A stretch of DNA of 64,000 bases, taken from contig NZ_LT899436.1 of assembly GCF_900198195.1 (NCBI RefSeq), forward strand, positions 124,001 through 188,000, written 5' to 3'. The translations under genes and the position numbers were made by a program. Source of the stretch: Tenacibaculum jejuense. Its GTDB lineage: Bacteria; Bacteroidota; Bacteroidia; Flavobacteriales; Flavobacteriaceae. The notes under the pieces are model-generated. The model was given only the letters and a program-made list of their open reading frames with translations, did not search any database and was not told the origin of the DNA. Below are positions 40,174 through 45,517 of the stretch, piece by piece. The first letter of the stretch is position 1. Each line of letters opens with the position of its first letter.

Positions 40174-40264
40174 AAGCTTATTTTTACCTATAAGTCAGAT
40201 TTCAAAAACCTGTGAGGTCTAAAAATATTTCTTGACCCTTATGCTTAATCATATTACAGTTTTA

Positions 40265-40296
40265 TTTGTTTTATGTTTGAATTGTTGCTACATTTG
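40265..40296 (+). promoter_or_regulatory. Promoter of the toxin operon (TTTG-N20-TACATTTG)
   Basis: TTTG at 40265-40268, 20 bp spacer, TACATTTG at 40289-40296, 21 bp before the ATG at 40318. Fits the Bacteroidota consensus in both boxes and spacing. Confidence 0.75.
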
Positions 40297-40317: not shown

Positions 40318-42462
40318 ATGCTATCATTTAAAACACTTGATGAACTTCACGAGTTCAATAAAAAGAGCTTTGCGCAAATCTCAGGAATAAAAAAAATAGA
40401 ACAACCCGAGAGTCCATTCCAAGAAGGTTCTTTTGATGATCTAAAATTTCATGCACGACCGCATGAAGTTTTTAATATTGATCGGAACACTTACAAGAGT
40501 ATTGATTTTGCTGATAAATTTTTACCATACATTAAAAAATATTATAAAGGAAAAGGAATGTGGATGTATGACGGTGCTGAGTTATTTAATGGATTAAAAA
40601 AGGCAGAAAGAAAATTATTCACTTTTGATGACCATGAATATTTAATCAGCCTAATTAATTACACATATCCAAAAGGAGTATTAGCACAAGAAAGAAAAGA
40701 CCGAATACAGGTTTCTGAAAATGAAGTGTTAACATTTGTTGAAGTAGATGAAAACGAAACTATTGATGTGTCCTTTAAATTTGGAAAACGATTTAAAAAC
40801 TATTTAAAGAAATCTTTGGAAAATAGTAAGTCAATAGTATCTACAGATTCATTAGAAAACAAAATCTACCAAACGGATAAAAAAAAGTTTCAAAGTTTTT
40901 TTAATAAAGAGTTAGTGCATGATAATATGATGCGTTATGTTCTTAATACTTTGGAAGTTGAAAGTGAGGCAACTGAGCTAGCTGAATTCAATGTTCTTTT
41001 TTCGAAAAAAGTAGTTTTTTTTATGGAAGATTTTACCATAGCTGGTAAATACAAACCATATGTTTTTATTGAAAGATCTCAGAGAGATGTACAATTAAAA
41101 ACAGACACTACAATTAATGAAGGAGTTAAAATAGCTCCTAAACCCAATGAAATTTATATTTGGTTAGTACATAAAAGCAGTTCTTTTATAAAAGTTCAAT
41201 TAGGAACCAATATTGCTAGAGATCTAAAAGAAAAAGAGATAACGCAAGACTCTATTGAACGACTAATCATTAATGAAATTAAAGCTGAATTAAATACTAA
41301 TATTTACAGTAAAAGAATTATTGATAGAGCTACTAACAGAGGTCTTGGAGATGCATTAATACAGTTATGGATTTTAGAGAGAAAAGAAAGTAGTGAGTTA
41401 AATACTGAAATATTTAATACAAACCCTGCTTTATTTCTTGCTTTGCAAGCAGCCAACTTTGCTGTAGAAAAAATTGAAAGTTATAAATTCAAGGAACATC
41501 ACTGGAATCCAAAGTTGGAAAACTATCTCCCTCTTATTGAAAGAGACACTTTATTTAACGCCAAGGTTTGTGGTTTTATTAATGGAATTATAGATGAAGC
41601 CAAAGCAATACCTGAAATGCTATCTCTTTTCACTAAAATATTGGGGAGTGAAAAAGAGAAAGAAGCATTTATAAACGGACTTAAAAAATTATTTGAAGAA
41701 GGTATCTTTCAAGCGATCATTGAAGGTGCTACTCAAGAATATAGAAGAGCTATCCAAGAAGGGAACGTTGAACGACTTTATTACAACTTGGCTCATGATG
41801 CTATACAAATTGTATCTTTGTTGACAGGTATTTTTCAATTAGTAAATGGAGTCGCTGGGTTTATTAATTTTTCAAAAAAAGGGCTTCAATATATTAAACG
41901 TTATGGTAAAAAAGCTATTGACGATTTAAAATTATTTAACAAAAAGGAAATTGAAGAAATCTTTGATGATTTAGATTTACAAGTTAACTCAAAGAAAACA
42001 GAACAGTTCAAACAATTTGTAAAAAAATGGAAAGGAAAAAGCATAGCTAATCTGACGAAAAAAGAAATAGTTAAAAATTTACAAGGGTTTACCGAACAAG
42101 CTAATAGAATAGCAAAATTGATTGATGATGGAGAAATGGTTATTAAGATATTAGAAGACACAGATTTTGAACAAATTTTAATGGATTTTGGAGACACTCT
42201 TGACGAAGCTAAAGCTACAGCAGCCTTTAATATTGGGGATGAAAATTATTTTAGAGCCTCTAAACCTGTAGATGAATTTATGAGTGAAATTGTACACGAA
42301 GGAACCCACACTTTAGATAACCTAAGTGGATTTAAAGGAGACGTATATCAATTAGAAAAACGTGCGTTTTTTCACGAAAGGGCATTCCAAAAAGCTGTCA
42401 AAATAAATGTAGATCATGAAGAAATTAATGATTTACTTGATTTTATATATTTAAATTATTAA
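40318..42462 (+). CDS. Putative polymorphic toxin with C-terminal HExxH zincin domain
   Basis: A 714-residue protein with no signal peptide and no T9SS tail. The first ~480 residues are Lys/Glu-rich and unassigned. A hydrophobic stretch follows at about 498-520 (IQIVSLLTGIFQLVNGVAGF), as in pre-toxin regions. The C-terminus has HEGTH at 660-664 and downstream Glu candidates (E680 or E687 in LEKRAFFHERAF), the pattern of gluzincin-like metallopeptidase toxins. A row of small genes follows 13 bp later. The frame opens at 40273, but this overlaps the promoter, so ATG 40318 is chosen. The toxin reading is inference; delivery route unknown. Confidence 0.6.
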   Translation: MLSFKTLDELHEFNKKSFAQISGIKKIEQPESPFQEGSFDDLKFHARPHEVFNIDRNTYKSIDFADKFLPYIKKYYKGKGMWMYDGAELFNGLKKAERKLFTFDDHEYLISLINYTYPKGVLAQERKDRIQVSENEVLTFVEVDENETIDVSFKFGKRFKNYLKKSLENSKSIVSTDSLENKIYQTDKKKFQSFFNKELVHDNMMRYVLNTLEVESEATELAEFNVLFSKKVVFFMEDFTIAGKYKPYVFIERSQRDVQLKTDTTINEGVKIAPKPNEIYIWLVHKSSSFIKVQLGTNIARDLKEKEITQDSIERLIINEIKAELNTNIYSKRIIDRATNRGLGDALIQLWILERKESSELNTEIFNTNPALFLALQAANFAVEKIESYKFKEHHWNPKLENYLPLIERDTLFNAKVCGFINGIIDEAKAIPEMLSLFTKILGSEKEKEAFINGLKKLFEEGIFQAIIEGATQEYRRAIQEGNVERLYYNLAHDAIQIVSLLTGIFQLVNGVAGFINFSKKGLQYIKRYGKKAIDDLKLFNKKEIEEIFDDLDLQVNSKKTEQFKQFVKKWKGKSIANLTKKEIVKNLQGFTEQANRIAKLIDDGEMVIKILEDTDFEQILMDFGDTLDEAKATAAFNIGDENYFRASKPVDEFMSEIVHEGTHTLDNLSGFKGDVYQLEKRAFFHERAFQKAVKINVDHEEINDLLDFIYLNY

Positions 42463-42475
42463 AAATAAGTAAAAG

Positions 42476-42862
42476 ATGAAACCAGAAATAAGAGTAATTA
42501 TTAATGAATTAATTGAATTTGATAAAACTAGAAAACCAAAAAAATCTTTGAATAACGTTTATGAAAAACAAGGAGAGCGAAATGTTTATGTACTTAATGG
42601 AAAAATATTATTATGGCATAAAAAAGTATTTCTAAATTTAGAGTTACCAGAAAAATATGACATATCAGAACATAAAAAACTACAAGAAAAATTTAAAAAC
42701 TTTTTTGAATATTGTCCTGATATAAAAAAGGTTTTTTCATTCCATGGAGATCATATTGGATGGTCAAATGATGTATCAGAAAATGAACAGCAAGAAATAA
42801 GAGACTATATTCATGAAAACCATAAAGTACCTGTAAGAATTAGAATCAACAAAAAGTCATAA
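42476..42862 (+). CDS. Putative cognate immunity protein
   Basis: A 128-residue soluble protein with no recognised domain. It starts 13 bp after the toxin gene, the usual place for an immunity gene. Charged, with the segment YCPDIKKVFSFHGDHIGW. If the toxin call is right, this is the first candidate for the neutralising partner. No signal peptide, so it would act in the cytoplasm. Confidence 0.55.
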   Translation: MKPEIRVIINELIEFDKTRKPKKSLNNVYEKQGERNVYVLNGKILLWHKKVFLNLELPEKYDISEHKKLQEKFKNFFEYCPDIKKVFSFHGDHIGWSNDVSENEQQEIRDYIHENHKVPVRIRINKKS

Positions 42863-42985
42863 TAATTTTAAGATTCATTAAGTTTCTTTTAATTCTTCTG
42901 TAATTCTTTTATCATAAGTGAATGAATTTAATTCTAGAACAAGGTAATTGTCTAAAAATCAAAACGTTACATTAAAAATAATATT

Positions 42986-43354
42986 ATGGATTATAAAAGT
43001 AAAATAAAAGAGATAGAAGATGAAGTGCATCAAATGATGGAAAACAGAAAAAAATGGTCTCCAAAGAAGAAACAAGAAATAGAAGCTAAAGAATTAGAAA
43101 TTACAAAAAGAGTCAAAGAAAAGTTAGATGAAAATAATATTCCAAAAAGAAGTATATTTTCTTATCTATATGAAAATCGTCTTTTAAAAGATGGAACAAC
43201 AAAGAAAACAGTTTTAATTACAAGTATGAGTGAACCTAAATTTGGTAAAAAACAGACTGTTATTTCTGACTTAGAAACTTTAGAGATGCTTTACGTACAA
43301 ACGGATGTTACTCGTTTTATGGATATTGAAGATTATTTTACTCCTAGAAAGTAA
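42986..43354 (+). CDS. Small hypothetical protein, immunity-array member
   Basis: A 122-residue protein, not recognised. The first ~55 residues form a likely helical coiled coil (KSKIKEIEDEVHQMMENRKK). The 123 bp before it contain no clear promoter, so it may be read through from the toxin. Position among small genes suggests an orphan immunity role; no direct evidence. Confidence 0.5.
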   Translation: MDYKSKIKEIEDEVHQMMENRKKWSPKKKQEIEAKELEITKRVKEKLDENNIPKRSIFSYLYENRLLKDGTTKKTVLITSMSEPKFGKKQTVISDLETLEMLYVQTDVTRFMDIEDYFTPRK

Positions 43355-43437
43355 GCATTATTTCAACACAACAGATCACTTTATCTCTGAAAGATGAAAC
43401 CAAAAATAAAATTTCATCAATCAAAGAATTATTTTTA

Positions 43438-43790
43438 ATGAATAAATTAAAAAGAAATTTGATGACTCAAATCTGGGAGTTATATGATTTAGACTCATTA
43501 GAAGACGCAGTATTTAATAATGATTCTGCTGAATATTTGAAAGATGCTTATGATTTACAAGAAATAAAAAAATAGGATATTCTCCATATTTGCAAGAAGC
43601 AGATGGAATTTTATTCTGTGTAATAGATAATGAGCATGGTGAACCTATTTTAGGTACTATATCTCAAATAACAATTCCGAATAAGATTATTAAGCATATG
43701 TACTTTAATGGACAAATACTTGTTTATAGTGATTTTGAAAGTATTGAAAATCTAATTGCTTTTATTCAAGAAAAATATCCAATTCAATAA
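43438..43790 (+). pseudogene. Small gene split by a frameshift in an A7 run
   Basis: A 45-codon frame from ATG 43438 stops at 43575 (DAYDLQEIKK). A second frame continues directly: read with one more A in the run at 43566-43572, the protein goes on as IGYSPYLQEADGILFCVIDNE to 43790 (EKYPIQ). The joined product would be about 116 residues, the size of its neighbours. Open sequence with coding character also extends upstream to 43348 without an ATG, so the 5' end may be lost too. Either a decaying immunity gene, a phase-variable one, or a sequencing error in the homopolymer. Confidence 0.6.
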
Positions 43791-43869
43791 AAAGATTAAA
43801 GGTCTTTAAAATGATAAAAAGCTTAAGCTTATTCCTTATGTAAATATCAATTTTATATTTAATAAAACA

Positions 43870-44136
43870 ATGTCCATCAGTTTAAACACAATACATAATA
43901 AACTAGAAGAACAAGGATATAAATCTTTTGTACGTAAAAATGATAATGAAAAATGGATTATAGCAGGAATACATGGTTCTAATACAAATTTTAAATTTGG
44001 GTCAGCTTTTCAAATAAGAATAACACAAAATCAAATTTTACTTTCTTATTTAGTGGGGCAATCAGCTGTAAACAAAGATTTCACTTCTTCAAAAGAGCTT
44101 TTTAAATATCTTAAAGAGAAATTTACTATTGAATAA
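43870..44136 (+). CDS. Small hypothetical protein, immunity-array member
   Basis: An 88-residue protein without recognised domains. Its C-terminus (QNQILLSY...SKELFKYLKEKFTIE) resembles the C-terminus of the split gene upstream (NGQILVYS...LIAFIQEKYPIQ), so they may be distant relatives. It ends 11 bp before the next gene. Confidence 0.55.
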   Translation: MSISLNTIHNKLEEQGYKSFVRKNDNEKWIIAGIHGSNTNFKFGSAFQIRITQNQILLSYLVGQSAVNKDFTSSKELFKYLKEKFTIE

Positions 44137-44147
44137 CAATTCAAAAT

Positions 44148-44423
44148 ATGAATGAACAAGATATCATAAAAAAAGTAAAAAAACACCTTGAAAAAAGACT
44201 TAATAGCATAGATGAATCACGAATAAGTTATTCAGGAATTAGACAAAATGCTCCTACTACTAATCCTAACGAAAGTAAGGATTTACACCTAACACATTAT
44301 TCATTAGAAAATATTGAAGGAAATCCATATACAACGAATATCTATACTGTAGCAATAGATGTGAAAACTGAAAACTTAGAATATATTTTAGGTCAGAATA
44401 TAATGGAGAAAATAGAAGAATGA
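44148..44423 (+). CDS. Small hypothetical protein, immunity-array member
   Basis: A 91-residue protein, not recognised; an N-terminal basic helix (DIIKKVKKHLEKRL) and a beta-rich rest. Its stop overlaps the start of the next gene by 4 bp (atga), so the two are translationally coupled. Confidence 0.55.
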   Translation: MNEQDIIKKVKKHLEKRLNSIDESRISYSGIRQNAPTTNPNESKDLHLTHYSLENIEGNPYTTNIYTVAIDVKTENLEYILGQNIMEKIEE

Positions 44424-44770
44424 AAAAGAGATTCACTTATGTAGGTTATATTAAAATAGAGTACCAACCTTTAATTTCCTTGATGAGAGAAATGCTAATT
44501 TCATCAAAAGTTAAAGAGAGATACGCTGCAGATATTGAAAAAGAAATTAATTATAAAGATGAAAAATTAGATATATATATCCATGAAGATGGAAATAATG
44601 GTTTTTTAATTGATATTGAATTGTTAGGTTCGTTTGTAGAAGCAAATGAATTCATTAATAACTTTACAAAAAAGCTTAGAGAAAAAAATATCACACATCA
44701 ATTTGAATGGAGTGGAGTAGGTGAAAATGATGAAGAAGTAGGAGAAGAGTATGAAATTTCATTTCCTTAA
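44420..44770 (+). CDS. Small paralogous immunity-like protein, copy 1
   Basis: A 116-residue acidic protein. With copies at 44791 and 45166 it forms a three-gene family: INYKDEKLDIYIHEDG, then a FVEANEFINNFTKKLREKNI helix and an acidic tail. No domain recognised. Its last 152 bp including the flank are nearly identical to copy 3. Coupled by overlap to the gene before it. Confidence 0.6.
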   Translation: MKKRFTYVGYIKIEYQPLISLMREMLISSKVKERYAADIEKEINYKDEKLDIYIHEDGNNGFLIDIELLGSFVEANEFINNFTKKLREKNITHQFEWSGVGENDEEVGEEYEISFP

Positions 44771-44788
44771 GCTAAAAGATAAAGAAGT
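44637..44788 (+). repeat. 152-bp direct repeat, copy A
   Basis: Same sequence as 45384-45535 with about four mismatches. Covers the 3' third of the immunity-like gene and its downstream flank. Confidence 0.9.
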
Positions 44789-44790
44789 TA

Positions 44791-45156
44791 ATGAATAACA
44801 TATATATAAACGGAAGTATTGAGGTAACAAATAAAAAGTTGTATAGCATTTTAAATGAGATTGAGGAAATTAATAATTCAAAATTAGAATTAAAACTTAA
44901 AGATTTTGGTTATGAAATTAATTATAAAGATGAAGAGATGTATTTTTATATTCATGGTAATGAGGAAGAAGATGAAAATGAAACAATAATTTTTGATTGT
45001 GAATTAAAGCAAGATTTATCTTATGCTCATAATTTTGTTTCTACAATTGTAGGTAAATTAAGAGAAAATAATATTGGGTATTTCAATTTTGAATATGGAT
45101 ATGGAGACGGAAAAGGGAATGATCTTGGAGAACAGTTTGAAGTTTCTTCCGAATAG
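44791..45156 (+). CDS. Small paralogous immunity-like protein, copy 2
   Basis: A 121-residue acidic relative of the 44420 protein: EINYKDEEMYFYIHGNEEEDE and HNFVSTIVGKLRENNIGYF. It is much diverged from the others and does not share the 152-bp repeat, though it lies between its two copies. Starts 20 bp after copy 1. Confidence 0.6.
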   Translation: MNNIYINGSIEVTNKKLYSILNEIEEINNSKLELKLKDFGYEINYKDEEMYFYIHGNEEEDENETIIFDCELKQDLSYAHNFVSTIVGKLRENNIGYFNFEYGYGDGKGNDLGEQFEVSSE

Positions 45157-45165
45157 ATTAATTAT

Positions 45166-45517
45166 ATGAAAAAAACATACATATATAATGGTTATTTAGA
45201 AACTAACCTTGATTTTATTAAAGAAATTTTAATATCATTTCTACCAAAGAAAAAAGATAAGAGATCGATTTGCTATAGATATAGAAAGGGAAATAAAATA
45301 TGAAGATGACTTTTTAGAAATTTATAGTCATAATTATTTTGAAAAAGGTGTTTTATTTCAAGTTGAGTTGAAAGGAACTTTATTAGAAGCAAATGAATTC
45401 ATTAATAACTTTACAAAAAAGCTTAGAGAAAAAAATATCACACATCAATTTGAATGGAGTGAAGTAGATGAAAATGATGAAGAAGTAGGAGAAGAGTATG
45501 AAATTTCATTTCCTTAA
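45166..45517 (+). pseudogene. Small paralogous immunity-like gene, copy 3, frameshifted
   Basis: Begins ATG AAA AAA like copy 1 (MKKTYIYNGYLETN), but the frame reaches a stop at about 45300. After a 1-base shift near 45260 the coding continues as FAIDIEREIKYEDDFLEIY to GEEYEISFP, ending at taa 45515-45517. The 3' part is almost identical to copy 1. As it stands it cannot make the full protein. Confidence 0.75.

Follow-up and report, generated by a model that had tools for sequence, protein, structure and literature searches.

The window analysed here is a stretch of 64,000 nucleotides, bases 124001–188000 of the single 4.61 Mb contig of the Tenacibaculum jejuense genome (G000 below); positions quoted without a genome or locus handle are those of the window. 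On its forward strand (40318–42462, +) lies an open reading frame encoding a protein of 714 residues that, judged from its sequence and from homologues with swapped ends, is a polymorphic toxin, and this is followed by an array of small immunity-type genes. Toxin and array probably constitute an island for a delivered antibacterial polymorphic toxin. Less certainly, the toxin may belong, as an outlier, to the regulon of a phage-derived locus type centred on a recurrent protein that we term A4. The toxin is probably protein-cutting and aimed at rival bacteria, and appears to be part of a phage-derived weapon system that is widespread in flavobacteria and has not been described so far. Comparison between loci brings out the modularity of the protein, the pairing of its tip with a companion gene, the immunity genes of sister toxins and the linkage of the tip to A4; delivery through the A4 system is inferred.

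The reading frame of the toxin is intact. An in-frame ATG is also present upstream at 40273, and the first residues of the relatives are those encoded at 40318, not at the 40273 ATG. Between the two ATGs falls a TAnnTTTG box (40289–40296, +) that lines up in each of the six toxin upstream regions compared, and which we take to be a Bacteroidota −7 promoter element. By eye, a hydrophobic stretch lies directly N-terminal to the tip and no signal peptide is visible, both as noted in a first-pass annotation of the window. That annotation had proposed a polymorphic toxin locus with many immunity genes, and the exchanged ends and sister-toxin immunity genes described below support the proposal. The toxin and five of the eight small genes have homologues in comparable positions in other genomes, so that the arrangement of toxin and array is not due to chance.

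The N-terminal region is found in 20 proteins. Because five of these (P0016–P0020, with unrelated bodies) match over only about the first 215 residues, residues 1–215 (N-module A; 40318–40962, +), delimited by block identities and search hits, are the widest module and residues 216–553 (N-module B; 40963–41976, +) the second. Module B is conserved as far as the swap point and ends in the hydrophobic pre-toxin stretch; a predicted model of low confidence makes it mostly helical after about residue 300. Exchange of C termini behind the same N-terminal region had been set as a check in advance, and different ends behind the same ~553 residues do occur in Tenacibaculum. The toxins of L003 and L037 match to residue 553 (80–82% identity over residues 1–553) and differ beyond it. 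The toxin of L015 is 66% identical to residue 561 and that of L016 37% to residue 552. For L002 (56%) and L014 (64%) the BLAST alignments extend to residues 651 and 616 respectively, running into the different ends of these proteins. The end of L003 is Tox-MPTase4 (E = 6e-9), those of L014 (E = 8e-8) and L002 (E = 3e-5) are Peptidase C39-like, and that of L016 is JAB-like, with the motif HNHPGG..D read by eye. In the N-domain alignment of 21 rows, Pfam returns C39 five times, Tox-MPTase4 three times and Het-C once.

The N-terminal region has no family over the cut-off in Pfam, NCBIfam or PADLOC, among them no known secretion or delivery domain, and no PDB match by sequence, in keeping with the earlier claim that it lacks a known delivery domain. 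The missing domain bears on the route of delivery and not on the modularity. The structure model of the region is too poor for a verdict on its fold. Two parts of it, residues 41–226 and 223–330, weakly resemble TPM domains (PG_0361 and BA42) structurally. By eye, a central W.P..Y.P..NAF.CG.yNG region is common to the window toxin and to toxins with unrelated N termini (L018:7865-9541, L019:4920-7181 and L020:1416-3476), and BLAST backs the similarity of L020 to L014, L003 and L018.

The tip (residues 554–714; 41977–42462, +) was delineated by alignment, model and structural neighbours. With residues 545–714 as query it is found in 32 proteins including itself, 30 of which lie outside the 20 N-region proteins. 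It recurs in other flavobacteria behind other N termini, and in L019 and L057 it stands within its own open reading frame with no carrier. The HEGTH motif, located in the C-terminal part of the 714-residue frame as first described, spans residues 660–664 (42295–42309, +); its two histidines, glutamate and glycine are invariant in all 20 aligned tips, as are Glu680 and Glu687 that follow it. Either of these two glutamates is a candidate third metal ligand. The AlphaFold model of the tip has a pLDDT of 93 and its structural neighbours are a list of metallopeptidases. The predicted zincin-like fold, already suggested for the HEGTH domain, is thereby supported by the high-confidence model and its neighbours, but not by Foldseek alone, which gave no match to the model at E <0.001. 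There is no Pfam or NCBIfam family over the cut-off and no PADLOC model for the tip. It is like the Tox-MPTase toxins (PF15640 and kin) in being a small HExxH metallopeptidase tip, and PF15640 stands behind the same N-domain in L003; unlike Tox-MPTase4, none of the 20 aligned zincin tips matches PF15640 at E 0.1. One IMG/VR contig (L057:18293-20746) has a loose zincin tip with an immunity gene, followed by repeated HELMH open reading frames and small genes, and looks like a store of toxin cassettes.

The gene immediately following the toxin (42476–42862, +) encodes 128 residues. Homologues follow the tip immediately in L004, L017, L018, L019 and L057, and twice in the Chryseobacterium genome G322, amounting to seven of the seven other tips read, in six loci. 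Behind both G322 tips the homologue follows at 10–11 bp (profile E = 1e-37 and 1e-27). As the constant companion of the tip it is likely to be its antidote. The family is also present in the A4 loci of G000 (4559224-4559622), G002 and G045 (profile E = 8e-18, 2e-11 and 4e-17 respectively), where two other genes of the array, searched as controls, gave no matches. Its product has no Pfam or NCBIfam family over the cut-off and no PADLOC model.

Behind this likely cognate gene the array continues with five more intact small genes, two broken frames and one fragment. An orphan immunity-type gene of 122 residues (42986–43354, +) has relatives behind two sister toxins: in G165, two places behind the toxin (87% identity), and in G067 (57%). 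A fragment of an immunity-type gene (43438–43575, +) is 36–41% identical over 36–39 residues to three genes of the G002 A4 locus (E = 1e-4 to 8e-6). The next three genes correspond to the immunity block of Tenacibaculum agarivorans (L002), where four small genes lie behind the C39 toxin and the first, second and fourth match genes of the window. A broken orphan gene lacking its first residues (43566–43790, +) is 88% identical over residues 14–90 to the first; an orphan gene of 88 residues (43870–44136, +) is 87.5% identical to the second, and 59% to a gene behind the C39 toxin of G002; and one of 91 residues (44148–44423, +) is 90% identical to the fourth. With three genes 87.5–90% identical to this block, the window retains putative antidotes against a C39 tip that is absent from it and belongs to a sister toxin.

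The last three genes of the array are paralogues with 34–57% identity among them: paralogue 1 (44420–44770, +; 116 residues), paralogue 2 (44791–45156, +; 121 residues; 34% to paralogue 1) and paralogue 3 (45169–45517, +), which has no through-frame and, in a search with X at its stops, is 57% identical to paralogue 1. No relatives of the three were found outside the window in the loci compared, and from their position they are putative immunity genes. The small-gene run with three paralogues and two broken copies, as originally described, is therefore present: one of the paralogues is broken in its frame (45169–45517), the other broken copy has lost its start (43566–43790), and the fragment at 43438–43575 is additional. 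The association of the small genes with homologues of the toxin also stands, with the homologue of the first gene behind every tip read and others behind the sister toxin of T. agarivorans. In composition the array resembles the heterogeneous polyimmunity loci (Zhang et al. 2012; PMC3482391), described in that paper as tandem unrelated immunity genes including orphans, with loose tip cassettes: one gene is likely cognate, two intact and one broken gene correspond to the block of a sister toxin, and one intact gene is found behind other sister toxins. Behind an A4-linked toxin in G045 (L039:404-9718) many SUKH-like small genes (by eye) stand in a long row, much as in a homogeneous polyimmunity locus.

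A4 is a recurrent unnamed protein of some 1,200 residues (range ~1,150–1,350) encoded close upstream of toxin genes. It was seen in L004, L018, L020, L019 (where it is cut by the end of the locus), G073 and G045; examples are L038:3941-7492, L039:12057-15557, L018:2928-6989 and, in the window genome, G000:C1:4565833-4569585 (L048/L049). It has the motif ADYRKVEQ..CYV.GEVSHIENIMAREYKERSTRRL. There was no convincing Pfam match in three members scanned, and no PDB match. The protein collection holds 1944 homologues; those that are named are, among the matches listed, mostly flavobacterial and mostly called hypothetical or of unknown function. The N-domain occurs in 7 of 146 Tenacibaculum genomes, reduced to six on dropping G011, whose match is weak and partial (E = 4.8e-5, model positions 406–593) and which also has A4. 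A4 is present in all six N-domain genomes versus 21 of the 140 others (27/146 in total), with a Fisher p of 2.4e-5 that is not corrected for phylogeny or genome size.

In a second genus, taken to be Chryseobacterium, the co-presence of A4 and tip tells little because A4 is common there (123 of 148 genomes); their closeness tells more. The tip is found in 18 of the 148, and in 17 of these the matches listed include an A4 that precedes the tip on one contig and in the same strand, with gaps of 2.4–11.7 kb (median 3.9 kb). The exception, G223, is in ~360 contigs and has A4 and tip on different ones.

The gene order of the A4 loci is the same in four Tenacibaculum genomes (G165, G002, G073 and G045). 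A divergent repressor is followed by A4, a toxin-like protein of 746–874 residues and immunity-type genes, and then by a CHAP endolysin, a holin, three or four fibre-like proteins and a spanin-like protein. CHAP and Phage_holin_4_1 were assigned by Pfam in G073 and by similarity elsewhere, and the membrane-anchored, spanin-like label is our own reading. Holin-, endolysin- and spanin-like genes, the last by the same reading, are likewise present in L004. In G073 an N-domain toxin comes next, 15 bp behind the spanin-like gene, and in G045 an 889-residue protein with a zincin tip occupies the same place. The A4 locus of the window genome (G000:C1:4549001-4570682) lies beside succinate dehydrogenase genes (by eye). 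Its repressor contains Peptidase_S24 (E = 4e-9), and a protein of 851 residues ends in YwqJ-deaminase (E = 4e-6). Also present are A4, immunity-type genes, two fibre-like genes, a protein of 934 residues and a match to CHAP; no holin match was found in the locus. The A4 locus of G067 looks reduced.

In G322 and two IMG/VR contigs A4 adjoins a tail-sheath protein (DUF2586 by Pfam in L057, phrog_907 in G322, by similarity in L056), together with a tube-like protein and a tape measure; in G322 a baseplate hub and tail proteins (PHROGs) also stand beside A4. One PHROG for the tube-like protein of G322 is labelled major head protein. As no portal, terminase, integrase or further clear head gene was recognised by eye in 65 kb of G322, its contractile tail looks headless. 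The set of contractile-tail genes (L062:5973-17310, with L063–L065) is tailocin-like and lies next to A4 and toxins, with a umuC-like gene nearby (by eye). In the Tenacibaculum A4 loci read, the only tail genes seen were the fibre-like ones.

The sister toxins are linked to the A4 loci by an operator-like motif. TGTAAAATGT or its complement is found in all six A4-repressor intergenic regions and in four of seven toxin upstream regions, the seventh of which (L016) is a 15-bp gap inside a cluster. A matrix built solely from the A4 regions was used to score the upstream regions of six orphan toxins against 240 other upstream regions. The number of these 240 that equal or beat the best site is 1 each for L003, L002 and L015, 3 for L037 and 5 for L014. 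At least three sites at score 8 occur in five of the six upstream regions of orphan N-domain toxins versus one of the 240 background regions, a set that may overlap these regions. This supports co-regulation of the sister toxins with the A4 loci. At the window toxin the motif is weak. A degenerate motif copy of the AACATTTTACA type (40247–40258, no strand assigned) aligns with clearer copies upstream of the sister toxins, but the best operator site of the window is unremarkable, with 34 of the 240 background regions scoring as high, and there is one site at score 8. Control of the window toxin by the A4 repressor is the weakest link in the proposed scheme.

In the mechanism we favour, a conserved carrier of ~553 residues bears one of a set of exchangeable tips, of which several are peptidase-like. 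Within the target cell the tip would bind zinc through His660, His664 and a downstream glutamate and would cut a protein; kin would survive through the product of 42476–42862, and the array would protect against the toxins of relatives. Less certainly, the toxin may be an outlying regulon member of the phage-derived A4 locus, be made upon induction of that locus, and be released by lysis, perhaps on a tail-like particle. The suggestion of the first-pass annotation that the trafficking route may be new is plausible to the extent that the evidence points, indirectly, to an undescribed phage-derived locus type; the route itself is not proven. A broader reading is possible but doubtful, namely that the Flavobacteriales possess a widespread, undescribed, toxin-armed and headless tail-derived weapon, under an S24-type, SOS-like repressor in Tenacibaculum, in which A4 would load or carry the toxins and a lysis cassette release them. 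Orphan toxins, scattered in the chromosome with operators of their own and a second type of N-domain, would then be loaded in trans.

The main rival to delivery by the A4 system is an extracellular contractile injection system (eCIS) of the Afp-like type, with the toxin as its cargo and the N-domain as a loading signal. PMC8213781 describes toxins of such phage-tail-derived systems, some with immunity genes, and the window genome has two Afp-like clusters (G000:C1:966001-987631 and 3663159-3681995; L025–L028). The sheath profile is present in 36 of the 146 Tenacibaculum genomes, five of the six with the N-domain versus 31 of the 140 others (Fisher p = 0.0036, with phylogeny and genome size not corrected), and the fibre-like proteins of the A4 loci begin much like the G000 eCIS protein 3668618-3669886 (by eye). 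We nevertheless consider this reading unlikely. There is no eCIS operon at the window toxin, which lies at 164 kb of the contig with the sheaths at 985 kb and 3,679 kb, and in no locus read did an N-domain toxin stand beside an eCIS cluster. G165, a one-contig genome whose N-domain toxin is 82% identical over 553 residues, has no sheath or tube match, and BLAST of the toxin-locus genes against three eCIS regions gave matches only in genes flanking the clusters. The first G000 cluster is near an open reading frame resembling a DUF4157-type protein (by eye).

That the locus is an orphan relic, a recombination leftover in which the toxin is undelivered and the array is merely an immunity reservoir, would accord with the two broken genes and the fragment, the weak operator of the window, the internal stop in the G067 copy of the sister toxin, and the lack of an adjacent delivery gene. 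We regard this as improbable, given the intact toxin frame with its motif residues kept, the aligned promoter box and the intact immunity gene at 42476–42862. Secretion by a type VI (T6SS) or type IX (T9SS) system is very improbable. T9SS export has been proposed for TANFOR, another class of Bacteroidota polymorphic toxin, in PMC7073777, but the window toxin has no sorting-domain or other family match over the cut-off and no signal peptide visible by eye. VipB of T6SSi is found in none of 147 genomes and TssC of T6SSiii in 12; G000 matches neither, TssC is also absent from G002, G045, G067 and G165, and G073 is the sole N-domain carrier to have it. Finally, zincins are common and housekeeping genes surround the toxin gene, as might be expected if the protein were a metallopeptidase of housekeeping or defence and the small genes beside it were unrelated. 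Such an enzyme would not account for a tip and carrier that swap independently or for small genes that travel with the tips, and there is no PADLOC match; the chance of this is slight in the extreme.

The preferred reading, a delivered toxin island tied to the A4 loci, has an overall architecture of an already known kind. The polymorphic toxins described in PMC3482391 have a constant N-terminal region, an exchangeable C-terminal enzyme and a cognate immunity gene, as here; unlike those systems, the N-region, tip and first immunity gene lack a Pfam or NCBIfam family and a PADLOC model. The TANFOR toxins share with the window the phylum, exchangeable toxin ends and immunity genes downstream, but according to PMC7073777 they mostly have a signal peptide and T9SS-substrate neighbours, neither of which was seen at the window toxin. 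The window toxin gave no NCBIfam match up to E 1, which would cover the TANFOR domain only if the library includes a model of it. In several A4 loci toxin genes adjoin holin, endolysin and spanin-like genes, much as in the lysis-cassette release of Type 10 secretion, from which these loci differ in having A4, fibre-like genes and an S24-type repressor; the window toxin is not beside such a cassette. The A4-linked tails of G322 and the two IMG/VR contigs, with a sheath, a tube-like protein and a tape measure, and in G322 baseplate proteins as well, are like R-type tailocins, but have toxins and immunity genes adjoining them. Enzyme toxins that can be exchanged are, to our knowledge, not a feature of typical R-tailocins.

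The carrier, tip and immunity families, their link to the A4 locus and an A4-type delivery route were not found in the literature searched. The finding contributes three families that have no Pfam model (a carrier domain, an HExxH toxin and an immunity protein) and links them to a locus type centred on A4. If A4 is a loader or a part of the particle, bacterial warfare in a major environmental phylum would have a delivery route not met in that literature, and the operator motif would provide a direct way to list its outlying effectors.

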